Position numbers and translations under genes: made by a program. Under the pieces are notes generated by a model, which saw only the letters and a list, made by a program, of their open reading frames with translations, searched no databases and was not told the DNA's origin. A DNA stretch of 64,000 nucleotides from Deltaproteobacteria bacterium (GTDB taxonomy: Bacteria; Desulfobacterota; Desulfuromonadia; Geobacterales; Geobacteraceae), in contig JAJZUC010000001.1 in assembly GCA_021847245.1 (NCBI GenBank), positions 103,368-167,367 on the forward strand, written 5' to 3'. Positions 49,229 to 57,655 of this stretch are shown here, in pieces (within the stretch, counting starts at the first letter, position 1; each line of letters opens with the position of its first letter).

Positions 49229-49624
49229 CTACACCGCCAGGGTGGCGAAGAGCGCTTCGAGCTTGGCCGCGTCCAGCGGCTTGACGATGAAGCTGGCGGC
49301 GCCCAGTTCACGGCAGCGGTCGAGCTCGTCGGGGTTGTCGGACGAAGAGGCAATGACCACCGGCAGCTCCCTGGTGGCGGGGTTGTGCCGCAGGCGTGCG
49401 AGGACATCCGACCCGTTCAGTCGGGGGAGCTGCAGGTCGAGGATGACGAGGGCCGGGAGCTGCGGTGCGGGGGTGGTCCCGTCCCCCACAAGCCGGCGGA
49501 GGGCCTCGGCCCCGTCGCGGGCGATCTCCAGCCGCACCGGCCGCGACAGTTTCTTCATCGCCCGGGTGGCGAGAAAGCGGTCATCGTCGTTGTCTTCAAC
49601 CAGCAGCACGTTCAGTTCGGTCAT
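49229..49624 (-). CDS. stand-alone response regulator receiver protein
   Basis: NVLLVEDNDDDRFLATRAM, LVILDLQLPRLNGSDVL, KPLD; start at MTELN. Confidence 0.93.
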   Translation of the reverse strand: MTELNVLLVEDNDDDRFLATRAMKKLSRPVRLEIARDGAEALRRLVGDGTTPAPQLPALVILDLQLPRLNGSDVLARLRHNPATRELPVVIASSSDNPDELDRCRELGAASFIVKPLDAAKLEALFATLAV

Positions 49625-49680
49625 GCGTTCCACCTGAAAACATTACTGATTAACACTAATCTTTCGCTACCAGATGTTCC

Positions 49681-49782
49681 CCCTCCCTTGACGGGAGGGG
49701 GAAGGGGGTGGGTGAAGTTTCAACTGGCTGATATCTTGGTACTTTCACCCCCACCCTAACCCTCCCCCGTCAAGGGGGAGGG
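49681..49782. repeat. dispersed-type inverted repeat around CCCTTGACGGG
   Basis: CCCTCCCTTGACGGGAGGGGGAAGGGGGTGGGTGAAGT ... ACTTTCACCCCCACCCTAACCCTCCCCCGTCAAGGGGGAGGG. Confidence 0.75.
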
Positions 49783-49789
49783 AATTTGT

Positions 49790-51397
49790 TTAGGAAGGCG
49801 GAGGCGGGCAGGGGGGGAGGGAAAAATAGCAGGTGGTGCCGCGCCCCTCCTCGCTCTCCAGCCAGATTCGCCCCCCGTGGCGCGAGACCACCCGGTGGAC
49901 GATGGCAAGCCCCACGCCGGTGCCGGGGAACTCGTCCGGCCGGTGGAGCCGCTGGAAGGGCTGGAACAGCTTGCCGGCATACGCCATGTTGAAGCCGGCG
50001 CCGTTGTCCCGCAGGTAGCAGACCGTCTCGCCGTCCCGCCAGGCCCGGCCGAAGGAGATCCTCCCCCGCTCGGTGCGGGCGGTGAACTTCCAGGCGTTCC
50101 CCACCAGGTTCTCCATCGCCACCCAGAGGAGCTCCGTGTCGGCGCAGACCATGACGTCCGGCTCCACTGTCACCTCCACCTCCCGTGCCGGCTCCCCCTC
50201 CGCCAGCGTCGCCGCGATGGCCCGGATCATGGCGCTCAGGTCCAGCTCCCGCAGCGCCAGCTCCCGGCGCTGCACCCGGAAGAGGGTCGACATGGCGGCG
50301 ATGACCCGCTCCATCTGACCGCTCACCCCCCTGATCCGCCGGAGGTAGTCGCGGCACTCTCTGCTCAGGGTGTCGCCGCATTCCTCCTCCAGGGCCTGAC
50401 AGAACCCGTTCAGGCGCATGAGCGGCGCCCGCAGGTCGTGGGAGGCGGAGTAGTTGAACGACTCCAGCTCCCGGTTCGCCTCCTCCAACTGGGCGGTCCG
50501 CTCCCGCACCCGCTCCTCCAGACGCGCGTTCAGCTCGGCGATCCGCAGGTTCGCCTCCTCCCGTTCCCGTCGGCGCTGCCAGATCGCCTCCACCATCCGG
50601 TTGAACGATGCCGCCAGCTCGCCGATCTCATCGTTTGATTCCACCGGGATGGTGGCGCTTCCCCCCGCCTCCACCGCCCGTACCCCCTCCGCCAGGTGCA
50701 GGAGGGGGTGGGTTACACCCCGGATCACCCCGTAGACGGCCCCGCAGCCGGCCAGGAGAAAGAGCGCGGCCGCCAGGCAGGTCGTGACGATCATGGCGCG
50801 GAGCCGCCGGTTGATCGGTTCTTCGTCCATGACGACCCGCACCGACCCCAGGGTGGACAGGGCGCCGCCGCTCCCCCCGGTCTCGAAGAAGAGATCCGAT
50901 TCGCGGGTCGCCCTGGTGCTGCCGATGACCGTCTCGGAAAACTCGAGCCGCCGCCCGATCCGGCGCAGCCCCGGTTTGCCGGCGGATGCTGTCTCTTGCG
51001 CCGGTGCCGGCTCCGCGCTTCCGTCGGCGGGACGCGTCACGGTCACGAGGGGATGGTTGTCGCGGTCGAAGATCGTGACCGAAAGGGCCTCGGGTGTTGC
51101 CATCGCCCCGTCGGCGATCTCCCGCAGCTGCTCGACGTTGCCGGCGAAGAGGGCCACGCGGGCATGGTTGGCCAGGAGCCGGGCCAGGAGCCGCCCCTCG
51201 GTGACGAGCTTCTCCTCCTCGCTCTCAAGGTGGTGGGTGATGAAGAAAACGGCAAAGATGGTCGAGATCGCCACGATCATGGTGGCGGTTACGGTGAAGA
51301 GCTTGGCGCGGAAACTGCCGCGGATGCTTCCGCAGATGCGGGAAATGGCGCCAGTTCGCGCAGTAGTCGGGGGGGTGCTCCGGGTTTCAGCAGTCAT
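49790..51397 (-). CDS. membrane sensor histidine kinase (HAMP)
   Basis: two TMs, HAMP, SASHDLRAPLMRLNGF H-box, HATPase DNGAGFNMAYAGKLFQPFQRLHRPDEFPGTGVGLAIVHRV. Confidence 0.95.
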   Translation of the reverse strand: MTAETRSTPPTTARTGAISRICGSIRGSFRAKLFTVTATMIVAISTIFAVFFITHHLESEEEKLVTEGRLLARLLANHARVALFAGNVEQLREIADGAMATPEALSVTIFDRDNHPLVTVTRPADGSAEPAPAQETASAGKPGLRRIGRRLEFSETVIGSTRATRESDLFFETGGSGGALSTLGSVRVVMDEEPINRRLRAMIVTTCLAAALFLLAGCGAVYGVIRGVTHPLLHLAEGVRAVEAGGSATIPVESNDEIGELAASFNRMVEAIWQRRREREEANLRIAELNARLEERVRERTAQLEEANRELESFNYSASHDLRAPLMRLNGFCQALEEECGDTLSRECRDYLRRIRGVSGQMERVIAAMSTLFRVQRRELALRELDLSAMIRAIAATLAEGEPAREVEVTVEPDVMVCADTELLWVAMENLVGNAWKFTARTERGRISFGRAWRDGETVCYLRDNGAGFNMAYAGKLFQPFQRLHRPDEFPGTGVGLAIVHRVVSRHGGRIWLESEEGRGTTCYFSLPPCPPPPS

Positions 51398-51427
51398 GCC
51401 GGCCTCCTGGGAGCTTCAAAACAAAAT

Positions 51428-52297
51428 TCATTCCCCGCGCAGATCGCGGGTGATGCCGAGGTTGCGCGCCACCGCCCCGTTGATCCGGAGGGTGATCCGG
51501 GCCGGCGCTTCGTCCGGCACCTCTTCCGGTGGGGTGCCGTTCATGATCCGGCGGGCCATCCGTCCCGCCTGGCGTCCCATGTCGGCCGGGTCCACCTCGA
51601 AGGCGGCCAGTGCCCCGTGCTGCAGGTACTTGGCGGCGAAGGCCATGACCGGCACCCGGTTCTCCTGGGAGAAGAGGGCGATCGCCTCCAGGGTCTCGGC
51701 GGTCACCACCGTCGGGTCGGGGAGGAGCCAGAGGACGTCCACCTTCCCCTTGAGGGCGGCGAGCTGCTGCAGCACCTGGCGGGGGGCGCGGACCTCGCGG
51801 GTCACCAGGGTGACCCCCTGGCGCTGCGCCGCCTGCCGCGCCTCCCTGACCATGGCGCCGGTGCGCCCCGGGTCGAAGAGGAGCCCGACGCGGTGGGCGG
51901 CCAGGTCGGCGTGGGCGAAGGCGAGGTAGCGCTCCGCCGGGACTCCCATGGTGATGCCGGTCACGTTGCCGTGGGCGGCGGTCGAGGGGGGGGCGGCCAC
52001 CATGACGTAGACGATGGGGATCTCGCGGATATCCTTCACCCGGGCCAGGGCCTCGCGGCCGATGGCGAGCACCACCCGGGGGTGCGCCTCCCGCACGGAG
52101 CGGACCACGTCGGCCCCCCGCAGCTCGGCGAGAACGAACCGCTCCACGGAACGGACCTCGGCCGTCGCCTCGAAGCCGTGCAGCGCCGCCTCGAAGGGTG
52201 CCATCCGCTCGCCCTGCACCACCACGACCTCCGCGGCGAAAGCCGGGAAGCCCCAGAGGAGCAGGAAGGCGAGTATGTGGAGGATGCGAGTCGTCAT
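51428..52297 (-). CDS. ABC-type (TrpX-like) substrate-binding protein without adjacent permease
   Basis: signal peptide; GITMGVPAERYLAFAHADL, VGLLFDPGRTGAMV; no ABC permease/ATPase in flanks. Confidence 0.85.
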   Translation of the reverse strand: MTTRILHILAFLLLWGFPAFAAEVVVVQGERMAPFEAALHGFEATAEVRSVERFVLAELRGADVVRSVREAHPRVVLAIGREALARVKDIREIPIVYVMVAAPPSTAAHGNVTGITMGVPAERYLAFAHADLAAHRVGLLFDPGRTGAMVREARQAAQRQGVTLVTREVRAPRQVLQQLAALKGKVDVLWLLPDPTVVTAETLEAIALFSQENRVPVMAFAAKYLQHGALAAFEVDPADMGRQAGRMARRIMNGTPPEEVPDEAPARITLRINGAVARNLGITRDLRGE

Positions 52298-52317
52298 GCG
52301 TTCCTAGATAGTTGCCG

Positions 52318-54183
52318 TTACCACTTGATGCGGAGGCCGCCTTCGAACCAGCGGCTGGGGTTCTTGAAAATCTCGTCGTGATATTGATTGTTGCTGAACA
52401 GGTTGTGGCCGGTGGCGAAGAGTTCGGCCTCGGTGTTACCGCTTCTGAAAAAGCGCCACCCCAAGTTTAGATCCCAGATGAAGTTGCCGTATTTGCCGCC
52501 CCAAGAGCTCGGGGTGTTCCAGTCGCGGTAATAGCCGATGAGGGAGCCGCGGAAGCGCTGCCGGTCGTCGTAGTGGAGGCCCAGATCCCAGGTTTGACGG
52601 GCTACACCGTCAAGTTTTTCGCCGGTCTCAAGGTTCCTTGCGTCGGTGAAGACATAGCCTGCGGTGAGCCAAGAGTTGTAGAGCGGAACGGTGCGGGCCT
52701 CAATCTCGAAACCTTCCCGCAGCGTTCTTGTCACTGTGTCACCCCGCTCCTTGAATTCATTGCGGAACCAGGTTCCTTTGAGCCAGAGGAAGGGGATGTC
52801 TGTGGTTTCGAAACCGGTCTGGACGGTCCAGCCAGTGTCTTTGGTGGCATAAGCCGGGTTCAAGACCGGCAGGTTGTAGCCCCGGGCCGTGTAGGCCCGT
52901 AGCAGTGTCTTGTCGGTGATGCCAAGGGTTACCCCGATGCTGGGGCTGAAGAAGTCGCCGGTTTTGCTGGTCAGGTCGTAACGGACTGCTGGGGTGATGG
53001 TAAGCCGCTTCCAGGCGATGGTGTCGTTCAGGAAGAAGCCCCATTTGTCGTTGGAGGCGTCGATATTGAAGAGGGGGTTCTTGGCCTGTCCATGGTCGAA
53101 GTCGATCCCACCGGTCAGGGTGTGGAGACCCTGGCGCCAAGTAAGTATAGCCGCGCCCCCGGCTGTTTTCTCGTCGTTGGTGATGGTAGCTAAACGCTCG
53201 CCGGTGCTGATGTCGTCATAACCTTCAGTGAAATCGAATCGCGTTCCTTTGATGAGGGCGTTGAAGGTTAGCCGGTCGGTCAGGGAGTAGTCGAGGGAGA
53301 GAGTCGACTGGAGGATGCGAAGCTTAAATTGGTCCGAAAATCCGGCGAATGTGATAAGGCCAACCTGCGGCGCTGTTTCCATGGAGTTGAAGGTGAGGCG
53401 GAGGCTTCCCCGGTCGGACAGGTTCCAGCGGAGCTTGGCGTAAGCGTTGTTGTTCTCGGTGGCGTTGAAGGGATGGAAGCCGTTGCTCTGGAGGTTGCCG
53501 CCCGAAAGATAGTAGCCGAGCCGGCCAACCGTGCCGGAGAGTTCTCCTCGTCCGTCGCGGGTGCCGTTCTCGCCACCTGAGAAAGATGCGGCGCCGCTGA
53601 AGGAGGCATGAAGGGCCGGCTCCTTCGTGATGACGTTGACTATACCTCCCAAGGAGGAGCTCCAACTCGAGGATGCGGGCCCCTTCAGGATTTCCACCCG
53701 CTCAATGTTCTGGACCGGGACCATGCCAGGGATGGCATAGCTGTCGGACTCGTTGTCAATGGGTACCCCGTCGATCAGGATCTGGATAAAACGGGTGGTG
53801 GCTCCAGCGAACTCAGTAAGAGTGGGAGCTCCTGGAGCGGTGTTGCCGGCGACCTGAACCCCGGGAACGATGGCGAGGACATCGGCCAGGGTGTGGGCAT
53901 TTATTGCCTCGATTTCTTCGGCGGTGATGACGGTTATGTTCTCGGCACTCCGGGAGAGGGGGCGCGGCGAGCGGGTGGCAGAGGTTACAGTCAGGTCCTG
54001 GGGTTCGTAGTAGAGCTCCATTGTCTCCCGGTCGCCGTCGGTTTCGGCGTGGGCAGGGAGGGGGAGACACAGGATGAACTGGGCAAGGAGGAAAAGAAAA
54101 ACGAGCCGCTCCCCCAGCGCCAATAGCCGCCGGAAACGCATTCCGGCGGATGCTGTCGCTATGGGGAGGCTCGATGGTGGCAT
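52318..54183 (-). CDS. TonB-dependent outer membrane receptor
   Basis: plug domain ITVITAEEIEAINAHTLADVLAIVPGVQV, RVEILKGPASSSWSSSLGGIVNVITK; C-terminal WFEGGLRIKW barrel strand. Confidence 0.95.
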   Translation of the reverse strand: MPPSSLPIATASAGMRFRRLLALGERLVFLFLLAQFILCLPLPAHAETDGDRETMELYYEPQDLTVTSATRSPRPLSRSAENITVITAEEIEAINAHTLADVLAIVPGVQVAGNTAPGAPTLTEFAGATTRFIQILIDGVPIDNESDSYAIPGMVPVQNIERVEILKGPASSSWSSSLGGIVNVITKEPALHASFSGAASFSGGENGTRDGRGELSGTVGRLGYYLSGGNLQSNGFHPFNATENNNAYAKLRWNLSDRGSLRLTFNSMETAPQVGLITFAGFSDQFKLRILQSTLSLDYSLTDRLTFNALIKGTRFDFTEGYDDISTGERLATITNDEKTAGGAAILTWRQGLHTLTGGIDFDHGQAKNPLFNIDASNDKWGFFLNDTIAWKRLTITPAVRYDLTSKTGDFFSPSIGVTLGITDKTLLRAYTARGYNLPVLNPAYATKDTGWTVQTGFETTDIPFLWLKGTWFRNEFKERGDTVTRTLREGFEIEARTVPLYNSWLTAGYVFTDARNLETGEKLDGVARQTWDLGLHYDDRQRFRGSLIGYYRDWNTPSSWGGKYGNFIWDLNLGWRFFRSGNTEAELFATGHNLFSNNQYHDEIFKNPSRWFEGGLRIKW

Positions 54184-54210
54184 GGGGTTTGCTGTTTAAT
54201 GAGAAAGTCT

Positions 54211-54238
54211 GTTATTGGCAGGCGCCCCTGCTTATAAC
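54211..54238. promoter_or_regulatory. candidate operator palindrome between TonB receptor and RiPP precursor
   Basis: GTTATTGGCAGG-CGCC-CCTGCTTATAAC (10/12 paired). Confidence 0.45.
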
Positions 54239-54309
54239 AAAAAAGATACGGTGTTGTCCATTTCATTCTGTACCTTCGGTGATTACTGCGCCAAAAGGAG
54301 ATGAGAGCC

Positions 54310-54429
54310 ATGAGTGAGATCACAGACGAGGTGGTGGTGCTGGATGCCGGAACATCCAGCGCCCCCGAGGGGCCGACGGCTTGCTGCACGTCGTCGTTAG
54401 TAACCACAAGGGTTCAGCCGGCAGAGTAG
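54310..54429 (+). CDS. geopeptide-like RiPP precursor peptide (39 aa)
   Basis: MSEITDEVVVLDAGTSSAPEGPTACCTSSLVTTRVQPAE; SD AAGGAG with 9-nt spacing; followed by terminator-like hairpin and radical SAM maturase; absent from ORF track. Confidence 0.75.
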   Translation: MSEITDEVVVLDAGTSSAPEGPTACCTSSLVTTRVQPAE

Positions 54430-54440
54430 CACTAAGGAGG

Positions 54441-54475
54441 AGAGGGGAGGGGACCGTTTCCCCTCCCTTTCTTCG
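54441..54475 (+). terminator. hairpin/terminator between precursor and maturase
   Basis: AGGGGAGGGGACCGTTTCCCCTCCCTTTCTTC. Confidence 0.65.
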
Positions 54476-54535
54476 CCCTCCGGCCATTTCGCGGGTCCCG
54501 TGCCAGAAAAGGGCGGGATGTCCGGTTCAGCACCG

Positions 54536-54735
54536 GGGCGTTGCCCCCGCCCCCACGTACTTTCTTTGGCCGCCCAAAGAAAGTACGCAAAGAAAACCGC
54601 CCCTGATGCCTTGGCCGCTGGCGCGGCTTCCCTCGCTCCGTCGGACGCTGCGGCGGGGGCCGGAACTCGCTTCGCTCAGACAGCCGCCCCCCTTCTTCCG
54701 CCGCGTCCTTACTCACTCGGCTGCGGCAAAGGGGG
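54536..54735. repeat. dispersed intergenic repeat with perfect 13-bp hairpin
   Basis: GTACTTTCTTTGG-CCGC-CCAAAGAAAGTAC (54557-54586) followed by CGCAAAGAAA and a Ser/Arg-like GC-rich tail. Confidence 0.6.
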
Positions 54736-54812
54736 AGAGACGAAAAGCGATAAGCGATAAGCAGGATTGCCCCCCCTTCATTCTGTCCATCACCTTTTCA
54801 TTCGGAGCCCCC

Positions 54813-56057
54813 ATGATCCTCTCCCGTTACGTCAAGGAATTCCCCTCCCCCGAGTCCCCTGACCAGCTCCTCCTCTTCTCCTGCCGCACCGGTGCGGTGG
54901 TGCGGGTGTCCCGGGCCACCTTCGCCGCGGCCCGGGCCGGCACCCTCTCTCCCGCGGCAGCCGCTACCCTGGAGCAGCACGGCTTCCTCACCCCCGACCG
55001 CGCCACGGAGCGGGCGGAGATGCTCGCCTGGTTCGACCGGATCAACGCCGGGCGGCGCCGCGCCGGTCTGGTGGCGGTCCTGACCCGGCGCTGCAATCTG
55101 GCCTGTCCTTACTGCTTCGAGGGGGGGCAGGCACCGGAGGGTGACATGGCGGAAGAGACCGCCGATCTGCTGGTGGCGATGATCGGGCGGGAATACTTTG
55201 CCAAGGGATGGCGGGTGGATCTCGATTTCTACGGCGGCGAGCCGCTGCTGCGTCCCGGCCTGATCCGGCGGATCGCCGCGCCGCTGCGGGCCGCGGGGGG
55301 CGAACTGTTCCACGGGCACCTGGTCAGTAACGGCACCCTCCTCGACCGGGAGGTGATGGCGGAGCTGGTCCCCCTGGGGATCGAGTCGGTGAAGGTGACC
55401 CTTGACGGCCCGCCCCACGTCCATGACCGCCACCGCCCCTACGGCGGCGGCGCCGGGAGTTTCCGCGACATCCTGCGGGGGGTGAAGGAGGTGGCGGAGC
55501 TGGTGAGGGTCCACGTGGGAGGGAACTTTACGCGGGAAACCTGGCGGGAGTACCCGGCGCTTCTGGATCTGCTGGTGGCGGAGGGGCTCACCCCGGAGCG
55601 GCTCGGGACGGTGCGCTTCACCCCGGCCGTGGGAGGGAAGGGGAGGGGGTGCGTGACCTGCGAGGAGCCGTGGCTGGCGGAGGCGGAGCTTTCCCTGCGG
55701 CAGGAGCTGGCGGCGCGGGGATTCCGGCTGCCGAAGCCCGGCCCCTTCTCCTGCATGATCGATCTGGCAAGTGACCTGGCGGTGGATGCCGACGGTCGCT
55801 GCTACAAATGCCCCGCCTTCATGGGGCACGCGGGGTACGCCGTGGGGACCCTGGGCGGCGGCCTCACCGGCGCACTCCCCGCCTACGGCCCCGATATCTG
55901 GAAGACGGAGGAGTGCCTCGGCTGCGCCTGGCTCCCCTTGTGCTTCGGCGGCTGCCGCTTCATGCGGCTGGCGGAGGCGGGAGGCGTGGACGGGGTGTCG
56001 TGCCTGCGGGGGTACCTGGACGCTACCCTGGAGACGGGGGTGCGGCGGGCGGCTTGA
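54813..56057 (+). CDS. geopeptide-type radical SAM peptide maturase (SPASM-like C-terminus)
   Basis: radical SAM CNLACPYCFEGG, DFYGGEPLL; C-terminal CYKCPAF...CLGCAWLPLCFGGCRF...C cluster. Confidence 0.88.
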   Translation: MILSRYVKEFPSPESPDQLLLFSCRTGAVVRVSRATFAAARAGTLSPAAAATLEQHGFLTPDRATERAEMLAWFDRINAGRRRAGLVAVLTRRCNLACPYCFEGGQAPEGDMAEETADLLVAMIGREYFAKGWRVDLDFYGGEPLLRPGLIRRIAAPLRAAGGELFHGHLVSNGTLLDREVMAELVPLGIESVKVTLDGPPHVHDRHRPYGGGAGSFRDILRGVKEVAELVRVHVGGNFTRETWREYPALLDLLVAEGLTPERLGTVRFTPAVGGKGRGCVTCEEPWLAEAELSLRQELAARGFRLPKPGPFSCMIDLASDLAVDADGRCYKCPAFMGHAGYAVGTLGGGLTGALPAYGPDIWKTEECLGCAWLPLCFGGCRFMRLAEAGGVDGVSCLRGYLDATLETGVRRAA

Positions 56058-56065
56058 ACAAAAGG

Positions 56066-56140
56066 TCCCCTGAGCAGAAGTTCGGCTGCGTTGCTGCTCT
56101 GTTCGGACTTTTCCAGTAGATCCTGCACGTCATTGTCCAT
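56066..56140 (-). pseudogene. truncated HEPN-domain gene remnant
   Basis: ATG overlaps the MNT stop; reads MDNDVQDLLEKSEQSSNAAELLLRG, HEPN-like N-terminal helix, then unrelated sequence antisense to the maturase. Confidence 0.65.
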
Positions 56141-56472
56141 CAGAGTGCCATCCCTTCTTGTCGGACGTTGAGCAGCAGGGGGGAGCGGCGTGTGTGGAAC
56201 GCGGCTGCTTCGTAGGGAATTACGGAAACAACGGTGTCGTACTTGAGCGAGATGTCGCTGATGGTCGCCAGGTACCGTTCGCGCTCGGTGGCGATATCCT
56301 GAAGATGGTCCAGTACAACGATGATGTCGACATCCGAATCGTCCGTGAAATCGCCCCGCGCGTAGGAGCCGAAGAGGATGATCTCCTTGAGCCGGGTGCC
56401 GTAAATTCTCTGGAGTTCGGAGCGAGTTTCCGCAAGCAGCTGGTCAATCTTGTCTGGAAATCGTTGTGCCAT
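56140..56472 (-). CDS. minimal nucleotidyltransferase (MNT, HEPN/MNT antitoxin type)
   Basis: IILFGSYARGDFTDDSDVDIIVV NTase motif GSxARG-DxD. Confidence 0.9.
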   Translation of the reverse strand: MAQRFPDKIDQLLAETRSELQRIYGTRLKEIILFGSYARGDFTDDSDVDIIVVLDHLQDIATERERYLATISDISLKYDTVVSVIPYEAAAFHTRRSPLLLNVRQEGMAL

Positions 56473-56560
56473 GGAAGCCGGGTGCCTCCCGTCAGATGCG
56501 TTCTCTCTATGTTTACCAGAAAAAACGCACTCTTTCCACCGTTATGCTTTGACAACGTCC

Positions 56561-57655
56561 CTACCCCAGCAGCCTGTCCAGCTGGTCGAAGTCGAGCACC
56601 TCTTCGGCCTGGGCCTTGATCAGGTCGATCTTTTCCGTGTCCTCGGCGCTGATCTTGGAGACGTGGTAGGTGAGGGCGGTGAAGACGTCGGCGGTGGTCT
56701 CGTGGATCCGGATGTAGGGGATGTTGCTGTCGTCGAGGATCTTCTGGGTGATGGCGGAGATCGGCGCGTGGCCGGGGATGATGAGGCCGGCGATCTTCTC
56801 GTAGTAGGACGGGATGTGGTAGAGGGACGAGAGGGTGACGAGGAGCTCGTCCCGGGAGCTGGTGCTGACGAGGAGCGTCGAGTCTAGGAGGTTGTCGATC
56901 ACCTTCTGGGACGAGGCGGCGCCGAGCTGGATGTGGTGGATGATCCGCGTTCCCTGGCTCCGGTCCCCCTTGAGGGGATGGCCGAGGAGCCGGGAGATGC
57001 TGTTGAGGGTCGGGTCGGCGAGGACGGGGGAGTAGTCGAAGGCGCCGACGACGCTGATCCGGTCCGGCGCGAAGGCGCGGGCGAGGTACGAGAGGGAGGT
57101 CTCGCGCTTTTCCGGGACGAGCTTGTTGACGAGGAGCGCCCGCACGTCGGCCCCTTCCAGCCGGTAGAGGGGGAGGTTGAGCTGGACCGAGTCGATGACG
57201 TTGCCGATCCCGCCGCCGGAGACCATGATGACCGGGGCATCGACGAGCTTCGCCACCCGGGCGTTGTTGAGGCCGATGACCGAGCCGACGCCGCCGTGGC
57301 CGGCTCCTTCGATGATGAGGAAGTCGTTCTTCGCCTCCAGCGCCCGGACCGCCTCGGTGATCCGCTCCACCGGCTGGCGGACCGTAATCTCGCCGTCGAT
57401 GAACTTCTTGGTGGAGCCCCGCCCCAGCACCACCGGCGACATGTGGGCGATGTCCGCTTCGAGGCCGTAGATGCGGGCCATGAGGGCGGCGTCCTTGTCG
57501 ACGGTCACGCCGTTGAAATCCTGGCATTTGGGGCCGATGGCCTTGATGAATCCTACCCTGCCGTACTTCTTCCGCGCCAGGTGCATGAGCGAGACGCTGA
57601 CGGTGGTCTTGCCCGAGTGCTGCCCCGTGGCGGCGATGAAAACCTTCCTGCACAT
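56561..57655 (-). CDS. BioD-like P-loop protein with DRTGG domain (phosphotransacetylase-like N-terminal family)
   Basis: FIAATGQHSGKTTVSVSLMHLA Walker A; FLIIEGAGHGGVGSVI; C-terminal DRTGG-like region. Confidence 0.85.
   Translation of the reverse strand: MCRKVFIAATGQHSGKTTVSVSLMHLARKKYGRVGFIKAIGPKCQDFNGVTVDKDAALMARIYGLEADIAHMSPVVLGRGSTKKFIDGEITVRQPVERITEAVRALEAKNDFLIIEGAGHGGVGSVIGLNNARVAKLVDAPVIMVSGGGIGNVIDSVQLNLPLYRLEGADVRALLVNKLVPEKRETSLSYLARAFAPDRISVVGAFDYSPVLADPTLNSISRLLGHPLKGDRSQGTRIIHHIQLGAASSQKVIDNLLDSTLLVSTSSRDELLVTLSSLYHIPSYYEKIAGLIIPGHAPISAITQKILDDSNIPYIRIHETTADVFTALTYHVSKISAEDTEKIDLIKAQAEEVLDFDQLDRLLG

Follow-up and report, generated by a model that had tools for sequence, protein, structure and literature searches.

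Closest described systems

Geopeptides are a kind of RiPP already named in a curated library (NCBIfam), in which TIGR04229 describes the precursor and TIGR04280 the radical SAM maturase. To our knowledge, a receptor module is not part of the geopeptide family description. Searches of a literature library for geopeptide, for TIGR04280/TIGR04229 and for Geobacter radical SAM RiPPs found nothing relevant. The Geobacterales, which include Geobacter, are an order of metal-respiring bacteria.

Two further groups of systems resemble parts of the locus described here. The first comprises CteB (with its substrate CteA) and other sactipeptide and ranthipeptide synthases such as SkfB, AlbA and PapB, in which an RRE, a radical SAM domain and a SPASM domain follow one another in the same order. 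CteB has an RRE, and the open site of its auxiliary cluster is taken by a substrate cysteine (review, PMC8172795). The second comprises RiPP genes that lie beside a TonB receptor. Methanobactin operons (MbnA/B/C, MbnT) contain such a receptor and sometimes a periplasmic binding protein (PMC3621798), and lasso peptide clusters of Asticcacaulis and Sphingomonas carry a divergent TonB receptor together with an isopeptidase (PMC11006600). Methanobactin, however, depends on MbnB/MbnC chemistry, FecIR-type regulation and a MATE exporter, whereas the present locus has a radical SAM maturase and a histidine kinase, and it is this same combination of maturase and sensor kinase that separates it from the lasso clusters. 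We know of no radical SAM maturase or kinase relay of this type in either methanobactin or lasso systems. Pfam scans of the eight proteins encoded from 49229 to 57655 found neither an MbnB/MbnC pair nor a lasso cyclase (asparagine-synthetase-like), leader protease or isopeptidase.

Organization of the locus

The locus lies in a 64,000-nucleotide stretch (hereafter the window) of a Geobacterales-type draft genome (G000; 2.96 Mb, 78% complete). Its features are listed in Table 1. A preliminary description of this DNA ended at 56057 and covered the precursor and maturase; absent from it was a divergent receptor operon on the minus strand (49790-54183), which is separated from the precursor by a 126-bp intergenic region.

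Table 1. Features of the geopeptide-type locus (window coordinates)
Feature	Position	Strand	Details and basis
Response regulator, single-domain	49229-49633	-	PF00072 2e-16
Membrane sensor histidine kinase	49790-51397	-	535 aa; weak sCache, HAMP, HisKA, HATPase
Periplasmic ABC_sub_bind protein	51428-52297	-	289 aa; PF04392 7e-26
TonB-dependent outer-membrane receptor	52318-54183	-	621 aa; PF07715 2e-20, PF00593 5e-17
TGGACAA element of shared divergent control region	54254-54260	-	
Shine-Dalgarno sequence of precursor	54293-54300	+	AAAAGGAG; 9-nt spacing to ATG 54310; direct reading
Precursor peptide gene	ATG 54310 to TAG 54427-54429	+	39 aa, MSEITDEVVVLDAGTSSAPEGPTACCTSSLVTTRVQPAE; direct reading
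Precursor parts	C25-C26 at 54382-54387	+	leader EITDEVVVLDAG; core with vicinal C25-C26; 13-residue tail; direct reading
Terminator-like hairpin between precursor and maturase	54442-54465	+	
14-bp palindrome in dispersed-repeat-like insert of the gap	54556-54587	.	
Radical SAM/SPASM geopeptide maturase	ATG 54813 to stop 56057	+	414 aa; TIGR04280, PF04055, alignment, predicted model
Maturase parts		+	RRE-like residues 1-80; CNLACPYC 94-101; SPASM C314...C397

The short precursor frame with its well-spaced ribosome-binding site, first proposed from direct reading, proved to be real. In a leave-one-out profile, which was built from 143 other precursors with the window copy left out and served as a chance test, it was the sole significant match among 1,353 window frames (E=2.7e-7), the runner-up frame reaching only E 0.06. 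A second in-frame ATG at 54301 is an unlikely start because the Shine-Dalgarno sequence touches it. A plain phmmer search of relatives with the window precursor yielded weak matches only, part of which turned out to adjoin maturases, and profile searches were needed.

Searches with the geopeptide models, proposed as a check in the preliminary description, gave a divided answer, since the maturase lies well over the TIGR04280 cut-off of 400 (531.2 bits, 2e-159) and the precursor under the curated TIGR04229 cut-off of 30 (25.2 bits, E=9.6e-06). The precursor nevertheless has the attributes of the TIGR04229 type, in that it is a short open reading frame upstream of a maturase with the conserved family leader and CC, and it is filed here as geopeptide-like by position, leader and CC rather than by the model. 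Besides this low score, two features distinguish the window locus from the described geopeptide system. Its 13-residue tail is among the longest of 143 CC peptides, in which the tail after CC spans 7-15 residues (median 8), and its precursor and maturase are 386 nt apart, whereas the median at other loci is about 71-74 nt, so that the two genes do not lie close together.

Terminator-like hairpins occur in 62 of 135 homologous precursor-maturase gaps, the window among them, against 3.8 in shuffles. The hairpin possibly limits maturase expression, and such hairpins are consistent with more precursor being made than enzyme. The window gap also holds a dispersed-repeat-like insert (54540-54700), similar copies of which are present in three other genomes (G002, in 9 places, G003 and G017).

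The precursor family

A profile search of 152 fetched stretches found 142 precursor-like open reading frames upstream of maturases, in 135 loci. CC is present in 139 of them and CTC in the remaining three (L125, L160 and L181), which are a natural spacing variant of CC. Manual reading of loci missed by the profile added extra CC peptides, including those of Nitrospirota loci L235 and L237, where long lysine-rich repetitive leaders replace the acidic ones and the CC tail is the same. Across the precursor set the leader is conserved, and the cores are short, C-terminal and hypervariable. Lack of conservation beside maturases had been named beforehand as grounds for abandoning the geopeptide-type pairing; the survey looked for it and found the CC precursor conserved at these positions.

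From just before CC onwards, 74 of 143 cores contain no aromatic residue or histidine. Aromatic cyclophane chemistry is thus disfavored as a general rule, and cysteine is the single reactive feature common to the cores. The window core, CCTSSLVTTRVQPAE, likewise has zero aromatic or histidine residues and thereby lacks the cross-link partner of radical SAM cyclophane RiPPs. CC itself is not absolute, because at two loci from the genus to which the window belongs the core contains just one cysteine. One of these, L051 (G000:C4:8794-10074), is the second geopeptide locus of the window's genome and has the core MKNAHVTAPKSSTRILVLDEGCAKSPYPKFCMVPLFRYYAN; the other, L053, has the core GICFGSYFIVRG. 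Alignment with these single-cysteine cores points to the second cysteine of CC as the possibly essential residue.

Some loci encode more than one precursor. At L063 (G021), a tandem array of about 5 kb combines several near-identical leaders with differing CC cores. Loci L074 and L081 have two precursors each, in which the leaders differ and the species-specific core is the same (CCWAVFLFTF and CCWAVFAFTF), which suggests selection on core identity.

The maturase and its proposed chemistry

The preliminary description named the next gene as a geopeptide radical SAM maturase, and the full-length match agrees: residues 1-412 align with positions 1-423 of the 428-position TIGR04280 model, and the protein almost certainly belongs to this family. 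The maturase is encoded by 42 of 48 genomes in a family sample and by 103 of 141 in the order, most of which have one or two copies. It is sparser at the phylum level, with 31 of 395 over the cut-off, and relatives also occur in Nitrospirota and other MAGs. One candidate, L092, was excluded from the maturase loci as a different radical SAM family.

Alignment of 18 homologs shows conservation of C94/C98/C101, C280, C314, C333, C368, C371, C377, C381 and C397. The radical SAM motif CX3CX2C and the seven-cysteine SPASM pattern CX13GX4C...CX2CX5CX3C...C are both present, and G328 is also invariant. The SPASM cysteines reported earlier stand as regards this seven-cysteine set, but the first cysteine of CYKC (C331) is private to the window copy.

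The maturase fold was predicted by AlphaFold with a pLDDT of 91.5, and C280 lies within the sole poorly predicted loop (275-280). The N-terminus is modeled as beta-beta-beta-alpha-alpha-alpha, as expected of an RRE. In a Foldseek ranking CteB came first (5why, 5wgg), followed by anSME, ChlB, TigE, SuiB and SkfB, and CteB was also the top match by sequence in a profile search, although identity in the structural alignment is only about 21%. The model thus contains the RRE, radical SAM and SPASM fold of sactipeptide and ranthipeptide synthases, and its closest structural match forms thioethers in a RiPP, which lends further support to the pairing of precursor and maturase. This predicted fold is not diagnostic of thioether formation, because non-thioether maturases share the same three parts, and the fold alone would not decide the chemistry.

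Three cysteines (C314, C333 and C381) are apparent ligands for auxiliary cluster I, which could therefore have an open site. Three such ligands and a cysteine-containing substrate are further likenesses to CteB-type synthases, but the substrates of those enzymes have spaced cysteines, whereas the geopeptide has two adjacent ones close to its C-terminus. The resemblance of the fold to CteB and the possible open site make thioether formation the preferred chemistry, and the chance that the product contains a cysteine thioether is put at about even.

In the proposed pathway, the RRE-like N-terminus of the maturase would bind the precursor leader (VVVLDAG), and the enzyme, after abstracting a hydrogen from a residue close to C25-C26, would form one or two cysteine thioethers. 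The open site of auxiliary cluster I would hold a substrate cysteine during this reaction, as described for CteB. The leader would then be cut off by a protease encoded elsewhere, and a small mature product would leave the cell. The cognate TonB receptor would capture this product, the periplasmic protein would bind it and the kinase would report it, so that the producer would sense or re-import its own peptide, either bare (as a signal) or loaded with cargo such as a metal. We infer these steps, from closure of the thioether through removal of the leader and export to recognition of the product by the linked receptor.

Conserved linkage to a receptor module

The new part of this system is its genomic context, which points to a near-obligate link between the geopeptide genes and one TonB receptor, one binding protein and one kinase. 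In the window, the response regulator is the likely partner of the sensor kinase, judging from its position, and no ABC permease or ATPase gene was recognized in the receptor operon. Receptor homology and fold named no ligand, with PirA, BtuB, PqqU and FepA-type matches about equally good, and homology searches with the binding protein named none either. A minimal, MntA-like nucleotidyltransferase is encoded at 56140-56472 (36.7 bits, under the cut-off of 60).

Linkage was counted at the 117 maturase loci for which no less than 3.5 kb of upstream and 3 kb of downstream sequence was available. A homologous TonB receptor is found at 115 of these, the ABC_sub_bind protein at 110, the sensor kinase at 99 and all three at 95. 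The two loci without the receptor have divergent maturases (L195:4077 and L196:4081, strand-oriented starts), the peptide upstream of which is of another type, MEGFGHTCCVL[LI]ACSVP..., and possibly form a separate maturase subfamily. In some Nitrospirota MAGs (L230, L232 and L235) the binding protein and kinase lie 3' of the maturase, so that the parts are kept and the order is changed; at L232 and L235 the receptor, too, accompanies the pair in this other arrangement. At the sequence level, the CC precursor, the SPASM maturase and the receptor, binding protein and kinase operon are kept together across Geobacterales and beyond, in further groups of which Nitrospirota is one.

Plug-domain counts bear on the same link. 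In the window genome two PF07715 domains exceed the threshold, one per geopeptide locus, and further receptors may be missing from this incomplete draft. The plug domains at geopeptide loci number 1/1 in G002, G009 and G025 and 2/2 in G028. Genomes G004, G013, G015 and G020 have neither the maturase nor this receptor subfamily, and the fragmented drafts G059 and G060 keep the receptor without a maturase.

Distances between maturases track those between receptors (r=0.74). The genomic linkage of the two may come partly from vertical inheritance. When maturase distance was removed in a partial Mantel analysis, core-specific coevolution with the receptor was not found, the partial r being 0.168 for receptor versus core and 0.172 for receptor versus leader.

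Among family homologs of the receptor, 30 of 81 lie away from a maturase. The binding protein and kinase are still present at 17 of 18 fetched loci of this kind, and in the receptor tree the maturase-less copies are interspersed with maturase-linked copies, the label changing at least five times. The reception set thus occurs on its own, and the peptide pair almost never without it. A producer/receiver arrangement predicts this asymmetry, and receptor-only sets would be expected where a strain retained just the reception part, but a separate primary ligand of the receptor would give the same result.

A scan of neighbor clusters (open reading frames of at least 90 aa, simple overlap rules) found no exporter, leader protease or peptidase, or ABC permease among the common clusters of maturase loci, and no conserved immunity gene. 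A sigma-54-type response regulator is nearby in 30 loci.

Functional interpretation

The best explanation of the whole, held with slightly more confidence than doubt, is that the locus is a geopeptide-type RiPP built into a receptor module. The conserved context favors, by a similarly small degree, the peptide being a self-made ligand of that module, either a signal or a metallophore. A broader and more tentative reading, which we would currently bet against by a little, is that geopeptides form a new RiPP class that is sensed by its own producers, in which a vicinal-cysteine peptide modified by a radical SAM enzyme serves as dedicated ligand for the relay of TonB receptor, periplasmic binding protein and histidine kinase; receiver-only strains would then have lost the peptide genes.

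The strongest competitor, though an unlikely one, is that the modified CC peptide is a cell-associated regulator or accessory, staying in the cell or periplasm and tuning the system of receptor, binding protein and kinase, for instance by switching with redox state or metal. CC is plausible as a metal or redox site, no exporter was found in the common neighbor clusters, and the receptor set also occurs at loci that lack the peptide, so that it may primarily bind something else. However, hypervariable short C-terminal cores behind a conserved leader look more like a released product, and the frequent hairpin after the precursor (62/135 gaps) suggests a product in excess over the enzyme.

It is improbable that the peptide is instead the source of a small cofactor for an enzyme elsewhere, which the receptor would scavenge from neighbors in the way that PqqU scavenges PQQ. 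Radical SAM enzymes have precedents for turning a peptide into a cofactor, in PQQ and mycofactocin, and the receptor has PqqU with PQQ among its best structural matches, but TonB receptors are all alike at that level, which makes this similarity weak evidence. The cores are also too variable for one universal cofactor, and the PQQ precedent comes without a kinase and binding protein.

An antimicrobial peptide, with the TonB receptor as entry gate or decoy and the kinase sensing the peptide, is more improbable still. Bacteriocins are common among thioether RiPPs. The lack of a conserved immunity or export gene among the common neighbor clusters argues against this role, as does an occurrence unlike that of bacteriocins, with 103 of 141 genomes in the order encoding the system and most having one or two copies; on the other side, peptide antibiotics such as MccJ25 do enter through TonB receptors (PMC11006600). 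Least probable of all is inherited linkage of an ordinary geopeptide pair to an unrelated receptor operon, for although shared descent would also give a high maturase-receptor distance correlation, paralogous loci within one genome each have a receptor, the parts persist while gene order changes, and the 115/117 linkage spans families and phyla.

On the preferred reading of a self-made ligand, the conserved linkage provides a first testable function for an orphan family and a radical SAM counterpart, in Geobacterales, to the methanobactin and lasso uptake systems. If geopeptides are indeed self-sensed, several Geobacterales genomes would have no other detected use for TonB-dependent receptors, and a role as metallophore or kin signal would bear on metal handling or community coordination in this order.

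The divergent control region

An Rfam search of the region returned nothing credible. No palindromic operator common to the homologous intergenic regions was found, the only enriched elements being TGGACA and ribosome sites. Of 85 homologous intergenic regions, 35 contain TGGACA, compared with an expectation of 5.2 and a maximum of 11 across 200 shuffles. Most copies are on the receptor strand, some 30-90 nt away from where the precursor starts, as is the window copy. The divergent promoter of the window also contains an operator-like imperfect inverted repeat, TGTTATTGGCAGG-CGCC-CCTGCTTATAACA, at 54210-54239.
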